From a virus: DNA of 64,000 nt. The DNA is taken from the IMG/VR virus record IMGVR_UViG_3300006931_000002, positions 1 to 64,000 of that record; one strand, written 5' to 3'. The translations under genes and the position numbers were made by a program. Below the pieces are notes generated by a model. That model saw only the letters and a list, made by a program, of their open reading frames with translations. It made no database searches and was not told the DNA's origin. Shown one piece after another: positions 2-49,531 of this stretch (positions are counted from its first letter, which is position 1; each line of letters starts with the position of its first letter).

Positions 2-88
2 GTCGACCAGTCCGTGGGCACCGACATGGCCGTCTTCCAACAGTCCGCGCGGACCATCCTCGACCGGTACCGCCGGGTCGCGATCTGA
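2..88 (+). CDS. C-terminal fragment of an upstream phage gene (partial)
   Basis: An open frame enters from the left edge and ends with TGA at 86-88, giving the last 28 residues (ends RRVAI). The tail is helical and charged, but too short to assign. Its position immediately before tail genes suggests a head or head-tail connector protein; this is inference from order only. Confidence 0.6.
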   Translation, partial: VDQSVGTDMAVFQQSARTILDRYRRVAI

Positions 89-3305: not shown

Positions 3306-6300
3306 ATGGCTTCCGGCCTCCTACCGCCCGCAGTCATACGCCTCATAGCTGATGCGGCCGAGATGGCCGCTGGGCTGCGGGAAGCCACCACTCAGATCAA
3401 GGCGGCAGCCGAGCAGGGTGCCGCGGCGGTCAAGGCCGCAGACGACTCGATGGCCCTGTCCGGCGAAGAAGCGGCAGCCAAGTGGGGTGCGGCATGGAAT
3501 GCCGAATGGGCACGTCAGGGGGCCGCTGCTGAGAAGGCGGCGCTGTCCACGCAGGTCGCCCAGCAGCGGGCACTGACTGAGGGTACCGCCGAATATGACG
3601 CTGCGATGGCCGCCCGGGTCCGGGCGACCGAGGCGGCCGCCGAGAAGGAGAAGGCCGCGCAGAGAGCCGCCTTCTCCGACATGAACGACGCGGTGAGCGC
3701 GTTCGGCCGGAAAGCCGCAATTGGGTTGGCCGGCGTTGCCGCCGCCTCCATCTACATGGCGGCCAAGTTTGACGCCTCGATGGAGCAGGTTCACACCGCC
3801 GCTGGGGCATCACAGGGCGAGGTCGACAAGCTCAAGGGTTCTGTTCTCAACCTGGCCTCGCAGACCGGGCAGGGACCTGACGCGCTGGCCGCCGGCCTGT
3901 ACCACGTCGAGTCGGCCGGTTATCGCGGCGCGCAGGCGATGGACATCCTGTCGGCCGCGGCGAAGGTCGCGACGATCGGTAACGCGAACTTGGAGGACAC
4001 CGCCCAGGCAATGATCGCCACCGTTGCCTCGGGTATCGGCGGCGTGAGGGACATGAACGACGCCGCCGCGCTCCTCAACACCACCGTCGGTATCGGCGAC
4101 ATGCGGATGTCGCAGTTGGCCAAGGCCATGGCGACCGGCATCCTGCCGACCGCCGCGACCGCCGGCCTCAAGTTCACCGACGTCGCCGCAGCGCTGGCCA
4201 CGTTGACGGACAACGCCACACCAGCCGACCAGGTGGCCACCCACCTGCGGATGACGCTCACGTTGATGGCCGCGCCCACCGACAAGGCTGCGAAGGCGCT
4301 CGCCGGGATCGGCATGTCGCAGAACCAGTTGGCGATGGACATGCGGCAGCCCAACGGCCTACTTGTCGCCGTCGAAGACCTGCGAACCCATCTGGGGGCG
4401 ATGCAGACCGACGCGCAGAAGGCTGCCGCGATGCAAACCCTGGCGGACGCGTTCGGCGGTGGCAAGACCGCCGGCAGCATCATGACGCTGATCCAGGAAC
4501 TGCCGCGTCTTCAGGACAAGTACAAGGCGCTGGGCGACTCGACGTCACGGGCAGCCGGACTCCAGGAGTCATGGAGAGCCACCCAGGGCACCTTTAAGAA
4601 CTCGCTCGACCGGCTCAAGTCCAGTGCAGAAGTGCTCGGCATCGAACTCGGCAACAAGCTGATCCCACCCCTGGAAAAAGTCATCGAGTTTTTCGCGAAA
4701 CACAAGGCTGTCGCCGAGGGCCTCGTCATCACTCTTGGCGTGCTCATGGGCCTGTCGGTTGCGATGTGGATCGCCGGCATCGTCAGCGGGATCATCGCCG
4801 CCACGGCAGCGATGATCGGATTCGACGCTGCGGCCGACGCAAACCCGATCGGCGCGTTCGTGCTCCTCGCGGAAATCGCCATTGCCGCGCTCATCGCCGC
4901 ATTCTACGAGATCCGCAAGCACTGGAAGGGTATCTCCGAGGGCTTCATTACCGCCTGGCATGCGATCGAAATCGCCTGGTTCGCTACCTGGGATGCGCTG
5001 AAAACCGCGTGGTTCGCTGTCGTTGGCGCTCTCGAAACGGCGTGGCGTGCCGTGTCGGGTGCTTTCGTCACCGCCTGGGATGCGGTTGTCGGCGCGTTGA
5101 AGGCCGCGTGGGGTGGGATCGTCACTGCCTGGGATGCGGTTGGCTCGGCTCTGTCGACCGCGTGGCATGCGACCCTGTCGGCTTTGGAAACGGCGGCGCG
5201 GCCGTTCGTCGACGCCTGGCGGGCCACCGTCGGCGGGGTCGAAACATCCTGGCACGCCGTAACTCACGCTCTCGAAACCGCAGCCCGGGTCACCTGGAAC
5301 GCGATCAAGACGGCGGCGCTCGACGCCTGGCACTTCCTAGAGCCGATCCTCAAGGGCATCGCCACGGCGATCAACTATCTGCTGCTCCCGATCCGCCTTC
5401 AGGTACTTGCCTGGGAGATCGCCTACCGGGCCATCGAAAAGGCGGTCACATGGTTCTGGCACAGCGTCCTGGAGCCGTTCGGCAAGGGTGTTGCCTCGGT
5501 CGTCACCGGCACGATTGGAACGGCGATCCGCTGGCTCGAAACCGCTTGGCGAACCGTGTGGAATGCGCTCGGAACCGCGGTCAACTGGGTGTGGAACTCG
5601 GTGCTGCTGCCCGCCTTCCATGCGATTGTCTCAGGCGTCGAAACGTTCATCATCGGTAACCTTCGCCTAGCGCAGGCGATTTGGCACACGATCTGGTCGG
5701 CGCTCGGCACGGCCGTGTCGTTCGCGTGGAACTCGGTGCTGCTGCCGACGTTTCATGCGATTGCGACAGCGTTTGATGCGGTCATCGGCTTCGGGCTGCG
5801 TCTGCTTCAGGCGACCTGGAACGCTGTCTGGGGTGCTATCCGCACGGCTTTGTCCGCGATTTGGAATGGTTTCCTGTCGCCAACGTTTCATGCGATCGCC
5901 TCGGCGTTTGACGCTGTGATCGGGTTTGGGCTGCGCGCGTTGCAGGTTACCTGGAACACGATTTGGGGTGCGATCCACACGGCCGTGTCCACGGTGTGGA
6001 ACTCGTTCTTGTCGCCGACGTTCCATGCGATCAGCGGAGCGTTTGACGCGGTGATCGGCGCAGCGTTGCGCGGGCTGAAAACGACGTGGGACACGCTGTG
6101 GGGCGGGATCAAGTCGACGGTTACCACGATCTGGGGTGTCCTCAAGCCGATCTTCGATTCGATGGGCCGGGCGATCAAGGACATCACGGGTGGTATCACG
6201 GGTATCGCCAAGGGTGTCGGCGGGTTCGTCGGCAAACTGAACAAGATCGCCCCGTTCGCTGAGGGCGGTTCCCCACCAGTCGGCCAGGCCGTCCTTGTCG

Positions 6301-6575
6301 GTGAGCGTGGCCCCGAGCTGGCCGTGTTCGGCGCCCCGGCCTACATCCACCCTGCCAACGAGACCAAGTCGATCCTCGCGGGTGGGAAGGCGTCCGGCGG
6401 ATGGGTGGGGATGCAGCCGTCGGGCTCGTGGGGCGGCGGAGGGCAGACAACGATTGTCGTCGAGGTGCCGGTGAACCTCGACGGCCAGGTCCTGTTCAAG
6501 TCAACGCAGAAACAGGCCCTTCGGTACAACAGGCGGAATCCGAGTAATGGCCTGGCGCGTGTCGCTGGGCTCTGA
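3306..6575 (+). CDS. Tail tape measure protein
   Basis: 1089 residues, the largest gene of the early tail block, starting at ATG after a GGGGG site. The N-terminal 130 residues are Ala-rich coiled coil. Residues about 140-400 carry the TP901-type core (FDASMEQVHTAAGAS, LAAGLYHVESAGYRG, DNATPADQVATHLRM). A hydrophobic pair of membrane-like segments follows (about 470-530). After that come Trp-rich helical repeats, first with an 11-residue spacing and then as four 45-residue units. The C-terminus (FAEGGSPPVGQAVLVGERGPELAVF) is the common closing motif of actinophage tape measures. It sets tail length and is ejected with DNA. Confidence 0.93.
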   Translation: MASGLLPPAVIRLIADAAEMAAGLREATTQIKAAAEQGAAAVKAADDSMALSGEEAAAKWGAAWNAEWARQGAAAEKAALSTQVAQQRALTEGTAEYDAAMAARVRATEAAAEKEKAAQRAAFSDMNDAVSAFGRKAAIGLAGVAAASIYMAAKFDASMEQVHTAAGASQGEVDKLKGSVLNLASQTGQGPDALAAGLYHVESAGYRGAQAMDILSAAAKVATIGNANLEDTAQAMIATVASGIGGVRDMNDAAALLNTTVGIGDMRMSQLAKAMATGILPTAATAGLKFTDVAAALATLTDNATPADQVATHLRMTLTLMAAPTDKAAKALAGIGMSQNQLAMDMRQPNGLLVAVEDLRTHLGAMQTDAQKAAAMQTLADAFGGGKTAGSIMTLIQELPRLQDKYKALGDSTSRAAGLQESWRATQGTFKNSLDRLKSSAEVLGIELGNKLIPPLEKVIEFFAKHKAVAEGLVITLGVLMGLSVAMWIAGIVSGIIAATAAMIGFDAAADANPIGAFVLLAEIAIAALIAAFYEIRKHWKGISEGFITAWHAIEIAWFATWDALKTAWFAVVGALETAWRAVSGAFVTAWDAVVGALKAAWGGIVTAWDAVGSALSTAWHATLSALETAARPFVDAWRATVGGVETSWHAVTHALETAARVTWNAIKTAALDAWHFLEPILKGIATAINYLLLPIRLQVLAWEIAYRAIEKAVTWFWHSVLEPFGKGVASVVTGTIGTAIRWLETAWRTVWNALGTAVNWVWNSVLLPAFHAIVSGVETFIIGNLRLAQAIWHTIWSALGTAVSFAWNSVLLPTFHAIATAFDAVIGFGLRLLQATWNAVWGAIRTALSAIWNGFLSPTFHAIASAFDAVIGFGLRALQVTWNTIWGAIHTAVSTVWNSFLSPTFHAISGAFDAVIGAALRGLKTTWDTLWGGIKSTVTTIWGVLKPIFDSMGRAIKDITGGITGIAKGVGGFVGKLNKIAPFAEGGSPPVGQAVLVGERGPELAVFGAPAYIHPANETKSILAGGKASGGWVGMQPSGSWGGGGQTTIVVEVPVNLDGQVLFKSTQKQALRYNRRNPSNGLARVAGL
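5570..6110 (+). repeat. Four 135-bp tandem repeats inside the tape measure gene
   Basis: The codons for FHAI recur with exact 135-base spacing, with CATG at 5619, 5754, 5889 and 6024. Each unit encodes about 45 residues of the form WN-(S/G)-(V/F)-L-(L/S)-P-(A/T)-FHAI followed by a V(I/E)-(G/T)F hydrophobic stretch. Such units set tail length in steps. Confidence 0.85.
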
Positions 6576-23222: not shown

Positions 23223-25154
23223 TCATGCCGAGGGGAGGGCTGCGGTCCACACATAGCGCGTATCCCGACCCTGCCCAACCGACTCGGCCAGGCCGGCGCG
23301 CATCCACGGATGAACCAGGTCCTTCATCACCTTCGACCGGCCCCAGCCGGTCATTTCCTCCAACGCCTGCCGGGCCATACCCCCAGAAGGTGCTGCCTTT
23401 CGCATTGCCTCGCGGCACACTTCCTCCGCACGACTACCGGACAGCACAGGGCCCTTCGGAGCGTCCGGTACGACCACCGGCAGGATGATCCCCGGCCGTA
23501 CCGTCGGCAGGTCACGAACCTGCGCGATTTCGCCCTCAACGGTGGTATCCGAGACCATTGTTGGCGTAGGGTGGGCGATGGCCGCCTTCTGCTGGTCGAG
23601 GGCCTTTTCGGCTTCCGCCCATTCGGCATCCGGCCGGGCGTTGCACTCGGCCATCGCCTCGGCGATCACTGGCCTGTTGTCCTTCTCGACCCGGCGAGAT
23701 ACGACCGGTATTCCGCGCCGATGGCCGGGGGTTTCCGCGACGAACTGGCCCTTGTCGTCCATCGTCAGGAGTTCCACGCCGCCGCCGTTCAGCACCGATT
23801 CGGCGGCGCCCTCGCCCATCGCGAACTGGATACGGTCCTGAAGCATGCGGCGGAACCGCCACGACCACACCCCAGGGCCGTTCGTCACCTGCGCGATCAG
23901 AATTATTTTGATGCCCGCGGCGCCGGTCCGTAGCGCCATCTTCTGCAACCATTCGCCCAGTTCCTCGCCCTGGTTCGACGAGGCGAAGCGGGGGCCTTCC
24001 TCGATGAGCAGCACATACACTGGTTCGTCGGCGGACGGCTCCCACACCTGCCAGTCCCGGTCGGCCATCAGCCGTTCGCGGCGTAGCAGCAGATGCCAGA
24101 ACGTTTCCAGAAGACGCAGGAAGTCGGCTGGCTGGTCGATGTAGCGGAATACCGAGCCGGAGAAGAACCGGAAGTCGCGGCCCTGGGCGCCGTCAGCAAC
24201 AAGCCAGGCCAGGTCGGGGGCCTGCTGGTACAGCTCCATCAGGCGAAGCATCAGCTCGGACTTTCCGATCCGGGAAGCGCCCGCGACCAGCAGGTTTGTC
24301 GCCCCAACCTCCTGGTCATACATGACCAGGCCGTAAGGTTCGCTGTCCCGGTAGGGGCCGACCTTGCCCGGTTCACAGATCGACTCTGCGGGCTGCTGGG
24401 CGAGCAGGTCGAACGCCTTTCGGGGGTCCATTTCCTGGACGTGGAGTTCCCCGAGCCACAGGTAGCCGTCAGGGTCTGCGGTGAAGGTGACTTCGCCGGC
24501 TCGCCGTTCGAGCCGTGACGTCAGGTTGTTGAGCTGCTGGCTATCGAGGTTGAGCGTGTACCCGTGGGGGACTCGCAGACGGTAGGTGTGGCCGACTCCG
24601 CGGTCGTCGCGGATCGCATAGCAGTCGACATGAGGCATGCCCTGGGCCTCGGCCACCGCAGGCCATGCCGCCTTCCTTGCGGAGAGGAAGGCCTCCCGCT
24701 CCGCAGCCCTGCGGAGGTCGTCGCGGCGGGTCCGCAACGCCGGATGCGTAGCCAGGCGTACCGTGCCGGCGGCTGCGGCGACCGCGGTAAGCAGGCCCAC
24801 GCCTGCGAAGCCGAGTGCGGAGCCGGCTGCGGAGGCTGCTGCGAAGGCCGCCCAGATGACCAGCTCATTGCGGAGGGGGCTGTTGCGGACCGCAAAGTCG
24901 ACCGCAACCCAGCCCGCAACCGCAAGGAGGATCGCAACCCACCACAGTCCGGCGATGCGGAGCACCGCACCGCCCGCAACCGTGGTCACCGCAATCGCTG
25001 CGGGGATCGCAAAGGGCTTGCGGGACGGTGCGGAAGGGTTGCGGAGTGCGGTGCGGGGTTGCGGAGTGCGGTGCGGGGTTGCGGAGCCCGTCGCGGAGCT
25101 GGGTGCGGAGATGCGGACCAGCTCCGCACGTCCAGTCGAGCGGGCGGCGGCCAT
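23223..25154 (-). CDS. FtsK/SpoIIIE-type DNA translocase, TraB-like
   Basis: 643 residues, AAAGGA site before ATG. Residues about 45-130 contain membrane helices (AGLWWVAILLAVAGWVAVDF, ASAAGSALGFAGVGLLTAVA). The motor domain has Walker A GASRIGKSE (about 292-299) and Walker B VYVLLIEEG (about 385). The C-terminal 70 residues (RQALEEMTGWGRSKVMKDL) look like a winged-helix DNA reader as in FtsK-gamma. Size and layout match the TraB proteins that move double-stranded DNA between Streptomyces hyphae without a relaxase. The adjoining wall hydrolase and Spd-like proteins support a transfer role. Part of the N-terminal linker is coded by TGCGGA-type repeats. Confidence 0.85.
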   Translation of the reverse strand: MAAARSTGRAELVRISAPSSATGSATPHRTPQPRTALRNPSAPSRKPFAIPAAIAVTTVAGGAVLRIAGLWWVAILLAVAGWVAVDFAVRNSPLRNELVIWAAFAAASAAGSALGFAGVGLLTAVAAAAGTVRLATHPALRTRRDDLRRAAEREAFLSARKAAWPAVAEAQGMPHVDCYAIRDDRGVGHTYRLRVPHGYTLNLDSQQLNNLTSRLERRAGEVTFTADPDGYLWLGELHVQEMDPRKAFDLLAQQPAESICEPGKVGPYRDSEPYGLVMYDQEVGATNLLVAGASRIGKSELMLRLMELYQQAPDLAWLVADGAQGRDFRFFSGSVFRYIDQPADFLRLLETFWHLLLRRERLMADRDWQVWEPSADEPVYVLLIEEGPRFASSNQGEELGEWLQKMALRTGAAGIKIILIAQVTNGPGVWSWRFRRMLQDRIQFAMGEGAAESVLNGGGVELLTMDDKGQFVAETPGHRRGIPVVSRRVEKDNRPVIAEAMAECNARPDAEWAEAEKALDQQKAAIAHPTPTMVSDTTVEGEIAQVRDLPTVRPGIILPVVVPDAPKGPVLSGSRAEEVCREAMRKAAPSGGMARQALEEMTGWGRSKVMKDLVHPWMRAGLAESVGQGRDTRYVWTAALPSA

Positions 25155-43723: not shown

Positions 43724-44158
43724 ATGGCACGACCCGATTTGGGCCCAGAAAGCTGGGATCCGCCATCACGCCGCGACGCCGAGAAGGTTGCCGCAGCCCT
43801 GCACAGGTGGCGTGAGCGCGAGAAGTCCTTCTCGCGCAGCGCAGAAGAAATCCTCCACATCTGGGAGTCCGCCGACCTCATCGGGAACGACCTAGACCGC
43901 TATCGCGCACGGCCGTGGGAAGTGCTCGACGACCGCGGCGGAGAGTTCTGGCCGCCACTTCCGGACGATGACCGCGCCCACTCGATCATCTGGGGTTGGT
44001 TGCGAGCGGGCCTCGACGAAGACTTCCTCAAGCGAATCATGCTGCCACTCCGTAAGTCGACGGAGATCGACGACGCAGACAAGTGGGCCCACTACACCAC
44101 CGTTGTCGAGTCCGCCCTTTCCGCCTTTCGGCAGGAAGCGGCCGGCGAGGACCGGTGA
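43724..44158 (+). CDS. Helical early protein
   Basis: 144 residues, acidic, helical (ARPDLGPESWDPPSRRDAEK; LRAGLDEDFLKRIMLPLRKS). Stop overlaps the initiator start (GTGA). It may be a partner of the replication initiator by position. No family recognised. Confidence 0.65.
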   Translation: MARPDLGPESWDPPSRRDAEKVAAALHRWREREKSFSRSAEEILHIWESADLIGNDLDRYRARPWEVLDDRGGEFWPPLPDDDRAHSIIWGWLRAGLDEDFLKRIMLPLRKSTEIDDADKWAHYTTVVESALSAFRQEAAGEDR

Positions 44159-45312
44159 GCGAGTGGAAATGGGTGATCGAGCGGGCGGTGACCTGCCGCC
44201 CGAACCGCGAGGACCCGCCACTTCCCGAGCCGCTTCCCAGCACGTGTCGGCTAGTGATGCTCGCGCTGTTGTCGCTCACTGTTTCTGATGCCGTGATCCG
44301 CGAGGACCGTCAGCCGTCACTGGGCGAGCTGGCAGGCATGGTGGGGATGAGTAAGGACGCCGTCAGCAGTGCCCTGAACTACTTGGAGGGCCGGCGCCCG
44401 CGGAAGGACGAGAAGGGTCGGCAGCGATGGACCGACACGGCCGGCAGGTCGATGCCAGTTGTCGCTGGCATGGACGTGTGGATCGTGCGGCATCGGCCTG
44501 CTACGGCAAAGTCGCTCGGCGAAGGGGAGACGACCCGCTACGAGCTTCTGCACCCGTGCGCCAAGTCTCCTGCCGGCACGGTCAGTAGTCCGGGAGCCGG
44601 ACAGGGTGTAGTCTGGGAGCCGGACAGGGTTGCCGACCCGGCAGTAGCCCGGGAGCCGGACACCCCTAGTCCGATTCCCGGACAGGGTGAACGGTCCAAC
44701 ACCCCGTCCGGTTCCCCGGTGCCCCTAGTCCGGGGAACGGACACCCCTAGTCCGGGAAACGGACACATTCCTTATCCAGACTGTAAAGACCTTCTAGACC
44801 AGGACAGCGCGACTTCGCGCGCCCCCATCCCGGCAGATGATCAGAATCAAGAAGCGCAGGCCACACTGCCCTTCGGACTGGCCGCCGTCGCCGCCACGGC
44901 TCAGACGCCACCCGCGTCCAAGACGGCAGCGCCGAGGAAGAAGTCTGGATCAAGGTCCGCGAAACCCCTCAGCGAACAAGGTTTGATCGCCAAGGGCATC
45001 GTGGACGAGTGGTGGGCTCGCCAGAGTCCGCGACCGGCATCACAGAAGTTCTGGCCAATCCTGAGAATCGTTGAAGGTCATCTCAAGGCGGGATGGACGG
45101 CCGAACAGACTTCACGGGCTCTCGACGACTGCATCACCGCCGGCTTTGCGATCACCATCAACACTTTCGAGCGTGCCCTACGGCAGCCCGGCAAGGTCAT
45201 CCAGATGCCGGCTCGTAACGCGGCTGGCTACCAGCCGTACCGCGACCCCGAAGACGAGTCGATCTACAACTACAGCTCGACGCCTGCTACCCGGGAGGCG
45301 AGCGGCCAGTGA
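44155..45312 (+). CDS. Phage replication initiator with internal origin iterons
   Basis: 385 residues from GTG 44155. N-terminal winged-helix domain (SLGELAGMVGMSKDAVSSAL, about 60-80). The middle (about 145-205) is Pro/Gly-rich and disordered, coded by six clear iterons. The C-terminal domain (QGLIAKGIVDEWWARQSP, KAGWTAEQTSRALDDCITAG) resembles loader-contact domains of phage initiators. The layout parallels lambda O: DNA-binding domain, origin inside the gene, helicase-loader contact. Next genes are a DnaC-like ATPase and DnaB. It is expected to bind the iterons and recruit the loader. Confidence 0.8.
   Translation: MSEWKWVIERAVTCRPNREDPPLPEPLPSTCRLVMLALLSLTVSDAVIREDRQPSLGELAGMVGMSKDAVSSALNYLEGRRPRKDEKGRQRWTDTAGRSMPVVAGMDVWIVRHRPATAKSLGEGETTRYELLHPCAKSPAGTVSSPGAGQGVVWEPDRVADPAVAREPDTPSPIPGQGERSNTPSGSPVPLVRGTDTPSPGNGHIPYPDCKDLLDQDSATSRAPIPADDQNQEAQATLPFGLAAVAATAQTPPASKTAAPRKKSGSRSAKPLSEQGLIAKGIVDEWWARQSPRPASQKFWPILRIVEGHLKAGWTAEQTSRALDDCITAGFAITINTFERALRQPGKVIQMPARNAAGYQPYRDPEDESIYNYSSTPATREASGQ
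44586..44768 (+). repeat. Replication-origin iterons inside the initiator gene
   Basis: Six 21-bp copies related to TAGTCCGGGAGCCGGACA start at 44586, 44609, 44645, 44667, 44726 and 44748; a degenerate one lies near 44705. Each has GTCCG...CGGAC dyad symmetry. The spacing is close to two helical turns. An A/T-richer stretch (44765-44805) follows, a possible unwinding element. Confidence 0.85.
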
Positions 45313-45983
45313 ACACCTCCGACGCTCTCACCGCGGCCCTTGGTGCCCTGCCTGCTGGCATCACCGTCCCGGACGTCGCCGACTCGGCGCGGCTCGTCGA
45401 CCCGGCCGAGATCCGCGCCGACCAGATCGCCGAACGCCTCTCCGAACTGATCCCGCCGCTGTGGACGGACGCCACAGCCAGCCACCCAGACATTGCCGCA
45501 TGGGCCGATCGTGTGGCCGCCGGTGACACCTGCTCGCTGCTGCTCGTCGGGCTCGTGGGTCGCGGTAAGAGCCACCAGGCGTATGGAGCGCTTCGCCGAA
45601 TCGTGGAGCGGTCATGGCCCCGCTCCTTGTCGATCGTCGCCGGCCCAGCGCCGGATCTTCTCGACGATGCCCGCCCGTCTCCGGGTGTAGATGGCCGCGA
45701 GGTGATCCGCCGCTACCGGGAAGCCGACGTTCTGATGTTGGACGACGTCGGCGCCGAGAAGGGCTCCGACTGGGTTGGCGAACAACTCTACCGGATCTTG
45801 GACTACCGGTATCGCTACCTGCGGCCCACGCTCGTCGTGTCGAACCTTCCCCCGGAGGCACCCCGGGAAGCGAACATCCACACGCTGGCGGCTCATCTCG
45901 GCGACCGGCTGTTCTCGCGGCTCTGCCAGATGTGTCAGACGGTCGTCATCACCGGCCCAGACCGCCGCCGGGCGGCCCGGTGA
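45309..45983 (+). CDS. DnaC/IstB-like helicase loader ATPase
   Basis: 224 residues from GTG 45309 overlapping the initiator stop. AAA+ motifs: Walker A GLVGRGKSH, Walker B VLMLDDVGAEK, and LVVSNLPPE with LGDRLFSRL as the sensor/arginine-finger region. The short form fits phage helicase loaders, which place DnaB on single-stranded DNA at the origin. Stop overlaps the DnaB start. Confidence 0.88.
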   Translation: MNTSDALTAALGALPAGITVPDVADSARLVDPAEIRADQIAERLSELIPPLWTDATASHPDIAAWADRVAAGDTCSLLLVGLVGRGKSHQAYGALRRIVERSWPRSLSIVAGPAPDLLDDARPSPGVDGREVIRRYREADVLMLDDVGAEKGSDWVGEQLYRILDYRYRYLRPTLVVSNLPPEAPREANIHTLAAHLGDRLFSRLCQMCQTVVITGPDRRRAAR

Positions 45984-47299
45984 CTGACACGCTGCCGCAC
46001 GACATTCCCGCGGAACAGGCCCTACTCGGCGGCATGCTGGCGTTCCCTGCTGCGATGGCTGATGCGGTTGAGCTGGTCAAGGGCGAGCACTTCTACCGGC
46101 CGGCACACCAGACCGTGTTCGACGTCCTCGTCGACATGTTCACCGAAGGGCAGCCGACCGGCACAGTTGCCGCCGCCGCTGAACTGGCCACCCGGGATTT
46201 GCTCGGCAAGGTCGGCGGCCATGACTACCTCCACACCTTGGAAGCATCGGCAACGACCGCGGCGAACACCACGCACTTCGCGCGAATCGTCGTCGACCGG
46301 GCAACCCGTCGACGCCTCGCCGAGGCCGGTGTCGCCGTCCAACAACTCGCCCTCGGCCCCGGCGCGGACGCCGACGAACTAGTCGACCGCGCGCAGACGG
46401 CCGTCTTCGCCGTCTCAGAAAGCCGTCAGGACGAGACAGCCCGGACGGTGGGGGATCTGCTTCCTGACACGCTGGCGGCGCTGGAAACGCCGCTTGACGG
46501 GCCGCAGGGTGTCATGACGGGCATCGCCGACTTGGACGAGGCCACGCAGGGTCTGCGCCCCGGGCAGGTCTGGGTGATCGGCGCGCGGCCGTCGGTCGGG
46601 AAGTCAACACTGGCACTCGGCATCGCTGCGCATGCGGCCATCCGCCAGAAGATCCCCACCGTCTACTTCTCGCTGGAGATGCCCGCCGCGGACCTCATGC
46701 AACGCCTACTGGCAGCCGAGGCCGGCGTGTCGCTGACTGCTTTGCAGAAGCACACCCTGTCAGAAGCCGACTGGGATCGGGTCGCCCACCGGATCGGCCC
46801 CATCACCCAGGCGCCGCTTGTCATCGACGATGCGAGCGCGGTCACGGTCGCCGAGATTCGGGCGAAGGCCCGGCGGATGTGCCAGCGCGACGGGCTCGGT
46901 CTGCTGGTCCTCGACTACCTCCAACTGGTCACGCCCGATGGCAGGTCGGAGAACCGGCAGCAGGCGGTAGCGGCGATGTCGATCGCCATGAGGACTCTGG
47001 CGAAGGATCTCGGCATCGTCGTGGTCGAGGTGGTCCAGTTGAACCGGGCCGTCGAGGGTCGTGCTGAGCGTCACCCGCAGTCGTCGGACATCCGGGAGAC
47101 GGGGCAGATCGAACAGGATGCCTACGGGATTGTGCTGCTGCATCGCGAGGACATGCACAATTCGATGTCGCCGCGGGCCGGGGAAATCGACCTGATCGTC
47201 GACAAGAACCGTGGCGGTGTCCGGGGAACCGTGTCGGCGGTCTATCAGGGTCACTATGCGCGGATTGTTGGAATGGCCCCCGATTGGGCGGATGGTTAG
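45980..47299 (+). CDS. dnaB: DnaB-family replicative helicase
   Basis: 439 residues from GTG 45980. N-terminal domain opens with PHDIPAEQALLGGMLAF and HFYRPAHQTVFDVL. RecA-like motor: GARPSVGKSTLALG (Walker A), YFSLEMPAADLMQRLLA, LLVLDYLQLV (Walker B) and SDIRETGQIEQDAYGIVLLH. Normal family length. With loader and initiator it forms the element's own replisome entry, so replication should not need the host DnaB. Confidence 0.95.
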   Translation: MTDTLPHDIPAEQALLGGMLAFPAAMADAVELVKGEHFYRPAHQTVFDVLVDMFTEGQPTGTVAAAAELATRDLLGKVGGHDYLHTLEASATTAANTTHFARIVVDRATRRRLAEAGVAVQQLALGPGADADELVDRAQTAVFAVSESRQDETARTVGDLLPDTLAALETPLDGPQGVMTGIADLDEATQGLRPGQVWVIGARPSVGKSTLALGIAAHAAIRQKIPTVYFSLEMPAADLMQRLLAAEAGVSLTALQKHTLSEADWDRVAHRIGPITQAPLVIDDASAVTVAEIRAKARRMCQRDGLGLLVLDYLQLVTPDGRSENRQQAVAAMSIAMRTLAKDLGIVVVEVVQLNRAVEGRAERHPQSSDIRETGQIEQDAYGIVLLHREDMHNSMSPRAGEIDLIVDKNRGGVRGTVSAVYQGHYARIVGMAPDWADG

Positions 47300-47301
47300 A
47301 T

Positions 47302-48960
47302 ATGATAGGGACTATGGGGGCCACGCTTTTCGGGTCCGAAGGCTGGGGTGAGTCGTCCAGCCTCCTGGCGCTGAGGGACTACCAAGAGGCGGCGATCGAC
47401 GCCGTCACGTCCACATGGGATCGGGGCGTGCTGCGGCCCGCGGTTGTGCTTGCCACCGGTGGAGGCAAGACCGTAATTTTCTCCCATCTGACGGCACGGC
47501 AGCCGGAGCGGACGCTTATCCTTGCGCACCGCCAGGAGTTGGTGTTCCAAGCCGCAGGGAAGCTCTCCGATGTCGCGCCGCATATGCATGTGGGCGTGGA
47601 GATGGCGGAGAGTAGCGCCCACGGCGCCCATGCTGTTGTGGCCTCGGTGCAGACGTTGGCGTCGGAGAAGCGCCGTGCGGCATGGTCGCGGAACGCCTTC
47701 GGCCAGGTGATTGTCGACGAAGCGCACCATGCCGTGGCGCCGACGTATCGGCAGGTGCTCGACTACTTCGGTTGCTTTGACCGCACTCGGGCGGTGGGGT
47801 TCACGGCGACGCTGGCGCGTGGTGATGGCGCCGGGCTTGGCGAGGTGTGGCAGGAGGTTGCCTTCGAGCGCGGCATCGAACCGATGATCGCCGATGGCTG
47901 GCTTGTCCGGCCATGCGGCAAGGTGATTCCGCTCGAAGGTCTCGATTTCTCGAAGGTCACACAGTCCCGCGGGGATCTGGCAGCTGGTTCGCTCGGCGAC
48001 CATCTGATGGAGATCGGGTTTGCGGAGCATGTAGCAGCGGCTTACCGGGAGCACGGTGGCGAGCGGCAGGGCATCGTCTTTACTCCGACCGTTGCGACTG
48101 CGCAGGCGGCGGCTGGCGCGCTGAACGCGGCTGGCGTCACCGCCGAGGCGGTGTGGGGCGAGATGGACCCGGATGACCGGCGTCGGGTCATCGCCAAGTT
48201 CAAGGCGGGAGACCTCCAGACTCTGGTCAATTGCATGATCTTGACCGAGGGCTTCGACGCGCCGCAGGCGTCATGCTTGGTAGTGGCCCGGCCAACCAAG
48301 TCTGCGCCGCTCTACCAGCAGATGCTGGGAAGGGTCCTTCGCCCGTCTCCGGGTAAGACTGATGCGCTGGTCCTTGACATCGTTGGCATCTCGAAGAACA
48401 TCAAGATTCGCACGCTCAAGGACCTGTCGTTGCGCCCGGCGAAGAAGTTTGGGGAAGTCGGCGAACGGGGCGAAGGTGGCGGCGCGGAGGCCGAAGACGT
48501 CGAGACGCTGACCCATGGCGTTGTCGAGGAAGTCTCGCTGTTCGAGGAATCGAACCGGCTCTGGCTGCGGACGAAGGGCGGCCACTGGTTCATCCCTGCC
48601 GGCGGCGGGTTCGTCTTCCTGCGCCCGTGGCCGAACGGGGCGGGCTATTCGGTGGGCTGGTTCGGCCGGTACGACGACCAGCCGAAGCTGATCCAGAAGG
48701 TGACCGACTTGGGCTATGCGATGGCCCGCGGCGAGTCGGCGGCCGAGGAAGCGGACCGCATGTCGGGTCAGTTCCGGTCGTCGATGCGGGATGCCCGGTG
48801 GCGGGGCGAGTTGGCGCCGTCGAACAGGCAGTTGGAGACGGCGGCGAAGATGCGGATCAAGGTTCCGCGCGGCGCGACGGCGGGTCAGGTCTCGGATCTG
48901 ATCACGGTGAAGCTCGCTTCGTCGCGGGTGGATGGCTATTTCAGAACGCGCGCGGCGTGA
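47302..48960 (+). CDS. SF2 DEAD/DEAH-box helicase
   Basis: 552 residues from ATG 47302 (ATG 47314 is an alternative). Motifs: Q-like RDYQEAAIDAV, I LATGGGKT, II VDEAHH, III FTATL, V LTEGFDAPQASCLVVA, VI QMLGRVLRP. The C-terminal 150 residues are a separate domain (HWFIPAGGGFVFLRPWPNGA; NRQLETAAKMRIKVPRGATA). This type is common in actinophage early regions and may aid recombination or fork restart. Confidence 0.9.
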   Translation: MIGTMGATLFGSEGWGESSSLLALRDYQEAAIDAVTSTWDRGVLRPAVVLATGGGKTVIFSHLTARQPERTLILAHRQELVFQAAGKLSDVAPHMHVGVEMAESSAHGAHAVVASVQTLASEKRRAAWSRNAFGQVIVDEAHHAVAPTYRQVLDYFGCFDRTRAVGFTATLARGDGAGLGEVWQEVAFERGIEPMIADGWLVRPCGKVIPLEGLDFSKVTQSRGDLAAGSLGDHLMEIGFAEHVAAAYREHGGERQGIVFTPTVATAQAAAGALNAAGVTAEAVWGEMDPDDRRRVIAKFKAGDLQTLVNCMILTEGFDAPQASCLVVARPTKSAPLYQQMLGRVLRPSPGKTDALVLDIVGISKNIKIRTLKDLSLRPAKKFGEVGERGEGGGAEAEDVETLTHGVVEEVSLFEESNRLWLRTKGGHWFIPAGGGFVFLRPWPNGAGYSVGWFGRYDDQPKLIQKVTDLGYAMARGESAAEEADRMSGQFRSSMRDARWRGELAPSNRQLETAAKMRIKVPRGATAGQVSDLITVKLASSRVDGYFRTRAA

Positions 48961-49003: not shown

Positions 49004-49531
49004 ATGGCCGGAGAAACGAGCATCACTGTGGTTGGCACGCTAACCGCCGATCCGGAGGTTCGGTTTCTGCCGAACGGAAACGCGGTGTGCAACTTCACGA
49101 TCGCGTCGAACGCGCGGACGTTCGACCGACAGGCGAACCAGTGGAAGGACGAGCCTCCGCTGTTCCTTCGCTGCTCGGTATGGCGTGACCTTGCCGAACA
49201 CTGCGCGGAGAGCTTGGCCAAGGGCGTTCGTGTGATCGCGCAGGGGAATTTGAAGATGCGCCCGTACGAGAAGGACGGGCAGAAGCGGTCGTCGACCGAG
49301 TTGGATGTGCAGGCGATCGGTCCTGAGCTTCGGTTTGCGACGGCGCGGGTACAGAAGGCGGACCGTGGCGGTCCGGGGCAGAACTCGGGCTACGACGGGC
49401 AGGCGCCGCAGCAGGGTTATGGCCAGCAGTCGCAGCGTCCGGCGCAGGGCTACGGCCAGCAGGGTCCGGCACCCGCGGACGACCCGTGGTCGCAGCCTGC
49501 GGGCGGCTATTCTGATCAGCCTCCCTTCTAG
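49004..49531 (+). CDS. ssb: Single-stranded DNA-binding protein
   Basis: 175 residues. OB fold: [60 protein letters not shown]. Gln/Gly-rich linker ([20 protein letters not shown]) and an acidic tip ending SDQPPF, the partner-binding tail. Standard bacterial-type SSB that coats DNA during replication. ATG has an upstream AGGG site. Confidence 0.95.

Follow-up and report, generated by a model that had tools for sequence, protein, structure and literature searches.

A probable lambda-like replication origin inside the initiator gene of a large uncultured phage

Our goal was to understand whether a replication initiator gene, in a large uncultured phage, also holds the phage origin. The DNA analysed, called the window throughout, is bases 1-64,000 of an IMG/VR virus record of 115,477 bp. 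Within the initiator gene, a palindrome of 15 bp, GTCCG-N5-CGGAC, occurs six times with no more than one mismatch (positions 44588-44764). Exact cores start at 44588, 44669, 44728 and 44750, and cores with one mismatch at 44611 and 44647. The elements are listed here in window coordinates.

44588-44602, no strand assigned: iteron 1, GTCCGGGAGCCGGAC, exact core
44611-44625, no strand assigned: iteron 2, GTCTGGGAGCCGGAC, one mismatch
44647-44661, no strand assigned: iteron 3, GCCCGGGAGCCGGAC, one mismatch
44669-44683, no strand assigned: iteron 4, GTCCGATTCCCGGAC, exact core
44706-44720, no strand assigned: degenerate seventh site, GTCCGGTTCCCCGGT, one half-site intact, read from sequence
44728-44742, no strand assigned: iteron 5, GTCCGGGGAACGGAC, exact core
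44750-44764, no strand assigned: iteron 6, GTCCGGGAAACGGAC, exact core
44765-44810, plus strand: A/T-richer unstable segment, candidate unwinding element, directly 3' of iteron 6

Six units with GTCCG/CGGAC symmetry had been described in the original prediction, and all were found in place. Their length, given there as 21 bp, was too loose; the core extends to only 18 bp when the flanking TA...A is counted, and spacing is irregular. Core-to-core distances are 23, 36, 22, 59 and 22 bp. With the half-site at 44706 included, which is in 22 bp register with iterons 5 and 6, they become 23, 36, 22, 37, 22 and 22 bp.

No further exact copy of the palindrome is present in the 64 kb window, where only five one-mismatch copies lie outside the array. 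Across the entire record, the looser pattern GTCYGN5CGGAC has five plus strand matches in the cluster and one at 91787, plus a single match found on the minus strand only, at 114789. The reversed pattern, used as a control, has no match in the whole record. When the initiator gene was subjected to 1000 synonymous codon shuffles, the maximum was 5 copies (2 exact), compared with the 6 (4 exact) observed. Logically, similar units could arise if a low-complexity linker repeated the same peptide, and the linker is indeed disordered and Pro/Gly/Ser-rich. However, the copies occupy two of the three reading frames and encode different peptides, and the codon shuffles did not reproduce the array. The frame shifts between copies thus contradict a peptide repeat, which we find scarcely credible. 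Since the iterons fall in two frames, and code for a disordered linker, selection acts on the DNA. We conclude that the iteron array is selected at the DNA level.

The initiator gene is the first in a series of overlapping or closely placed genes.

44155-45312, plus strand: initiator gene, 385 aa, begins with GTG at 44155 and overlaps the preceding gene by GTGA
44239-44547, plus strand: winged helix-turn-helix domain, residues ~28-130 (model, pLDDT up to ~94 by block)
45220-45270, plus strand: C-terminal tail motif, AAGYQPYRDPEDESIYN, common to the L003 initiator, with similar tails in L014, L141 and L080
45309-45983, plus strand: DnaC-like AAA+ helicase loader, 224 aa (phrog_50, E 3.5e-33), GTGA overlap with the initiator
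45980-47299, plus strand: DnaB-like replicative helicase (PF03796, E 1.8e-79; PF00772, E 1.6e-24), GTGA overlap with the loader
47314-48960, plus strand: DEAD/ResIII helicase, same gene cluster
49004-49531, plus strand: single-strand DNA-binding protein, SSB (PF00436, E 8.9e-29)

A structure model predicts that the initiator has an N-terminal winged helix-turn-helix, a disordered linker and a helical C-terminal part, the last modelled at low confidence. The linker covers residues ~136-270, and its coding DNA contains the iterons. Hence, the claim that the repeats code for a disordered linker agrees with the model. We propose, from the same model, that the winged helix-turn-helix is the iteron-binding domain. 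The initiator gives weak MarR_2/HTH matches, and its winged helix-turn-helix is conserved in relatives. As expected from the original prediction, a DnaC-like loader and DnaB follow at once. Because loader, DnaB, DEAD/ResIII helicase and SSB come next, we consider genes and iterons to be a compact replication cassette. A similar tail, GYQPYRxPxDxSxY, ends initiators with differing N-domains (window 45220-45270, L003:5828-5878, and the L014, L141 and L080 proteins). It may dock the loader.

The array is followed by A/T-richer DNA, as had also been claimed. Thus, G+C is 0.40, then 0.45, in the first two 20 bp blocks past the last iteron, compared with 0.65 for the gene. Scanned with segments of 30 bp, the site at 44767 is the third least stable of the 115 kb record; scanned with 50 bp, the site at 44757 is the second. 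Segment 42977-43080, close to where the rightward genes begin on the left, is also among the least stable of the record. Divergent promoters could be located there.

Our data suggest that the array is, very probably, a phage replication origin that resembles ori-lambda and lies inside its own initiator gene. This reading is favoured because the array, whose exact core is found nowhere else in the window, exceeds codon shuffles and uses two frames, and because an unstable segment adjoins its 3' side, with loader, DnaB and SSB genes following. In the mechanism we propose, a dimer of the N-terminal winged-helix domain would bind each palindrome, with one monomer per 5 bp half-site. Note that half-site centres are 10 bp apart, approximately one helical turn. 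Spaced by 22-23 bp, several such dimers would wrap the DNA, leading the unstable segment (~44765-44810) to melt. The C-terminal part of the initiator would then hand the DnaC-type loader, and phage DnaB, to the open strand. From the sequence, we infer binding, dimerisation, melting, helicase loading and the start of replication at the array. Three results count against an origin: the initiator has no significant family match, the loader is not lambda P, and no switch in GC skew is seen. Such a change had been anticipated near 44.7 kb; the cumulative curve shows no more than a slight local minimum at ~46.5-47 kb.

Initiator gene origins are already known in lambda, Stx phages and RepA_N plasmids, and the window probably joins that kind. 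In lambda, four inverted repeats that bind dimers precede the DNA that opens, an A+T-rich region of 40 bp (PMC5043065). The number of iterons is six in Stx phages (PMC7466680). Intragenic origins were earlier suggested for RepA-like mycobacteriophage prophages (PMC7157519). The similar plan of the lambda origin is a further argument for our reading. In both cases, palindromic iterons, ~20-24 bp apart in lambda, occupy linker-coding DNA in mid-gene. In both, an easily melted A/T-rich segment lies directly downstream, and a loader gene, DnaC-like (phrog_50) in the window, is next to the initiator. Hence, the predicted likeness to lambda ori within O extends to array, flank and adjoining loader. 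Lambda iterons, CCCTC-N5-GAGGG, also share the form of 5 bp half-site, 5 bp gap and 5 bp half-site. The claim that the repeats are unrelated therefore holds for sequence, since the half-site is GTCCG rather than CCCTC, and not for geometry. Other differences are the less regular spacing in the window (22-23 and 36-37), an initiator not directly matched by Phage_rep_O, a DnaC-like AAA+ loader in place of P, and a DnaB encoded by the phage itself. The window loader matches DnaC-like PHROGs only, and we rejected a lambda O/P module proper on this basis.

We searched for the family of the initiator in several ways. Neither Phage_rep_O (PF04492) nor RepA_N (PF06970) gave a Pfam match up to E 1, so membership of either was discarded, and the best O-like PHROG match reached only E 0.15. 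No initiator family was matched significantly. A direct homolog search with the initiator found nothing in phages or viral contigs, and a PDB sequence search gave no match. With DnaB as the query, no related locus was found in viral contigs, and phage matches were distant only. Megablast with the first 50 kb of the window identified no phage relative. Foldseek and VIA-align returned common winged-helix matches only (best E 0.28; Z under 8) and, because of this, we claim no family from the fold. RepA_N plasmid initiators 4pt7 and 4pql were near the top of the fold search, without significance, and MarR-type regulators also matched.

The RepA_N matches, although not significant, raise the possibility of a role in a prophage state, where the array would serve as a plasmid-type maintenance origin or incompatibility site and not as the lytic origin. 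RepA_N origins too are inside rep; in pSK41, origin boxes fall in the linker-coding part of the gene, between N-domain and C-domain (PMC5703833), as the iterons do in the window. However, the window initiator has no RepA_N Pfam match, and DnaC loader, DnaB and SSB lie alongside, as in phage replication modules. The pSK41 Rep interacts with DnaG primase, with no loader gene mentioned (PMC5703833). We judge a maintenance role quite unlikely. This, and operator use, discussed below, are the main rivals to a lytic origin.

To find related loci, viral sequences were scanned for pairs of GTCCG-N5-CGGAC separated by 5-25 bp. Tandem pairs of this kind are present in at least 120 viral stretches, compared with 21 for an anagram control, and no control stretch is inside a related initiator. 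Most sampled pairs are mid-gene, within winged helix-turn-helix initiators. Where a locus had a candidate gene, 84 of 111 included one whose homologs were present in five or more other loci. We sampled 41 initiators (39 from palindrome carriers, plus the window and L003). HTH_36 was matched by 28 of the 41, and replication-initiation or O-like PHROGs by 30-31. Two carriers, L083 and L045, pass the Pfam cut-off for Phage_rep_O itself. Hence, describing the window protein as unrelated to lambda O was too strong; there is no direct Phage_rep_O match, but relatives with the same iterons match O-like PHROGs. Conversely, the O-like initiators of MD8, JBD68, SfIV, D195 and Alderaan are without the palindrome, which is common and not universal. 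We define a GTCCG-N5-CGGAC iteron class by at least three palindromes (no more than one mismatch) in the linker of a winged helix-turn-helix initiator, with an A/T-rich 3' flank; by this definition of our own, the window belongs to it. The number of pairs, relative to control, and the matches to HTH_36 and replication-initiation PHROGs argue for an origin.

The closest relative found is L141. Its initiator is 31% identical to that of the window over the aligned part (E 2e-11) and its loader 41% identical (E 4e-40). L141 has six iterons, each identical to window iteron 1. That iteron and cassette are kept at such low identity again points to an origin. For the listed stretch of L141, no DnaB gene was seen beside the loader. 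Relatives of the window initiator, with the same iterons, also occur in L063, L034, L051 and L106. These IMG/VR loci, together with L141 and L189, share a homologous winged-helix N-domain, the palindrome and its in-gene position with the window, and differ in copy number and spacing. L034-type proteins are without the window's C-terminal part. L189, retrieved by protein motif rather than palindrome, has five exact copies; it is closely related to L034 and so is not independent evidence.

Half-site arms are nearly invariant in 181 copies, from carriers with a gene G+C of 28-74%; the carriers were retrieved by the same pattern, so this constancy comes partly from their selection. The arms bear on whether the repeats act in RNA, as hairpins, by attenuation or by coupling translation to the loader. 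Each unit could form a 5 bp stem with a 5 nt loop, and the GTGA overlap couples loader translation. However, compensatory change would be permitted in an RNA stem, which need not keep its arms near-constant as these pattern-selected carriers do, and the same arms are present in L189, which came from unbiased, protein-based retrieval. An RNA role is, in our view, highly improbable. Spacings of 22-23 bp are the main cluster among carriers, and those of 17-18 and 33-35 bp form additional peaks. A sharp, single helical period was rejected, since spacings of 17, 22-23 and 33-35 bp are all present.

Across 36 initiator genes, including that of the window, G+C drops by ~18 points in the 40 bp past the last iteron, with no comparable drop ahead of the first. 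In 36 relatives analysed, the coding strand after the last iteron is A-rich (0.36 versus 0.21) and G-poor (0.16 versus 0.31). The fall in G+C, in 36 carriers, is another reason to favour an origin. Alternatively, the sites might be operators, where the initiator represses or roadblocks transcription of its own gene, with replication starting elsewhere. The sites of dimeric winged-helix regulators are typically 15 bp palindromes, and the fold matches include those of MarR type. Against this, the sites are mid-gene, 430 bp past the start, and the A/T-rich segment is conserved on the 3' side only. Furthermore, carriers that match replication-initiation families have the same layout. Hence, we consider operator use unlikely. 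Many relatives have phased 10-11 bp repeats of AAGAACCRTCA type in the A/T-rich segment (lag-10 autocorrelation, z 6.3); in L127, L104, L117, L072 and L096 these follow the last iteron. Similarly, Arthrobacter phages Galaxy and Renna12 (L181 and L170) have GAACCGTCC repeats, 11 bp apart, past iterons of their own.

A more distant relative, L003/L002 (IMG/VR), was reached through homology of the window loader. It too has a winged-helix initiator, with O-like PHROG matches in L003, linker iterons, the tail motif and a homologous loader. Conversely, its half-site is GGGGC-N5-GCCCC, though of the same 5-5-5 form. Very different linker iterons accompany other N-domains at L004:3732-3840, L023:4463-4509, L024:4337-4563 and L182:2264-2319. 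In Gordonia phage Goib, the linker iteron is GGACCGGCGAA, every 11 bp. Comparison of the sequences suggests that N-domain and iterons are exchanged as a module.

We found no description of the palindrome, in phage origins, in the open-licence papers searched. Its recurrence over many phages, apparently with at least two winged-helix initiator subfamilies, looks new. GTCCG-N5-CGGAC might be a widely shared phage origin word, read by HTH_36-like and Phage_rep_O initiators at ~28-74% G+C, with mutual origin recognition possible; we hold this tentatively, and think it somewhat less probable than its opposite. If true, phages with no other relationship could have initiators that recognise each other's origins, and interference or exploitation at those origins would perhaps be possible. 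This raises the question of why one 10 bp recognition word is used across subfamilies, yet others in closely related cassettes (L003 and the Arthrobacter phages). The window itself provides a concrete candidate origin in a large uncultured phage, one whose DNA matches nothing in the phage collection. One short pattern also locates likely origins, and the surrounding initiator gene, in many unannotated phages.

Two other repeats occur in the window. Positions 25036-25086 are a perfect 20 bp tandem repeat, with 2.5 copies of GGGTTGCGGAGTGCGGTGCG. Positions 5673-6110 hold ~2.9 copies of a 135 bp repeat, within a long ORF (3306-6575) that is possibly a tape-measure gene.
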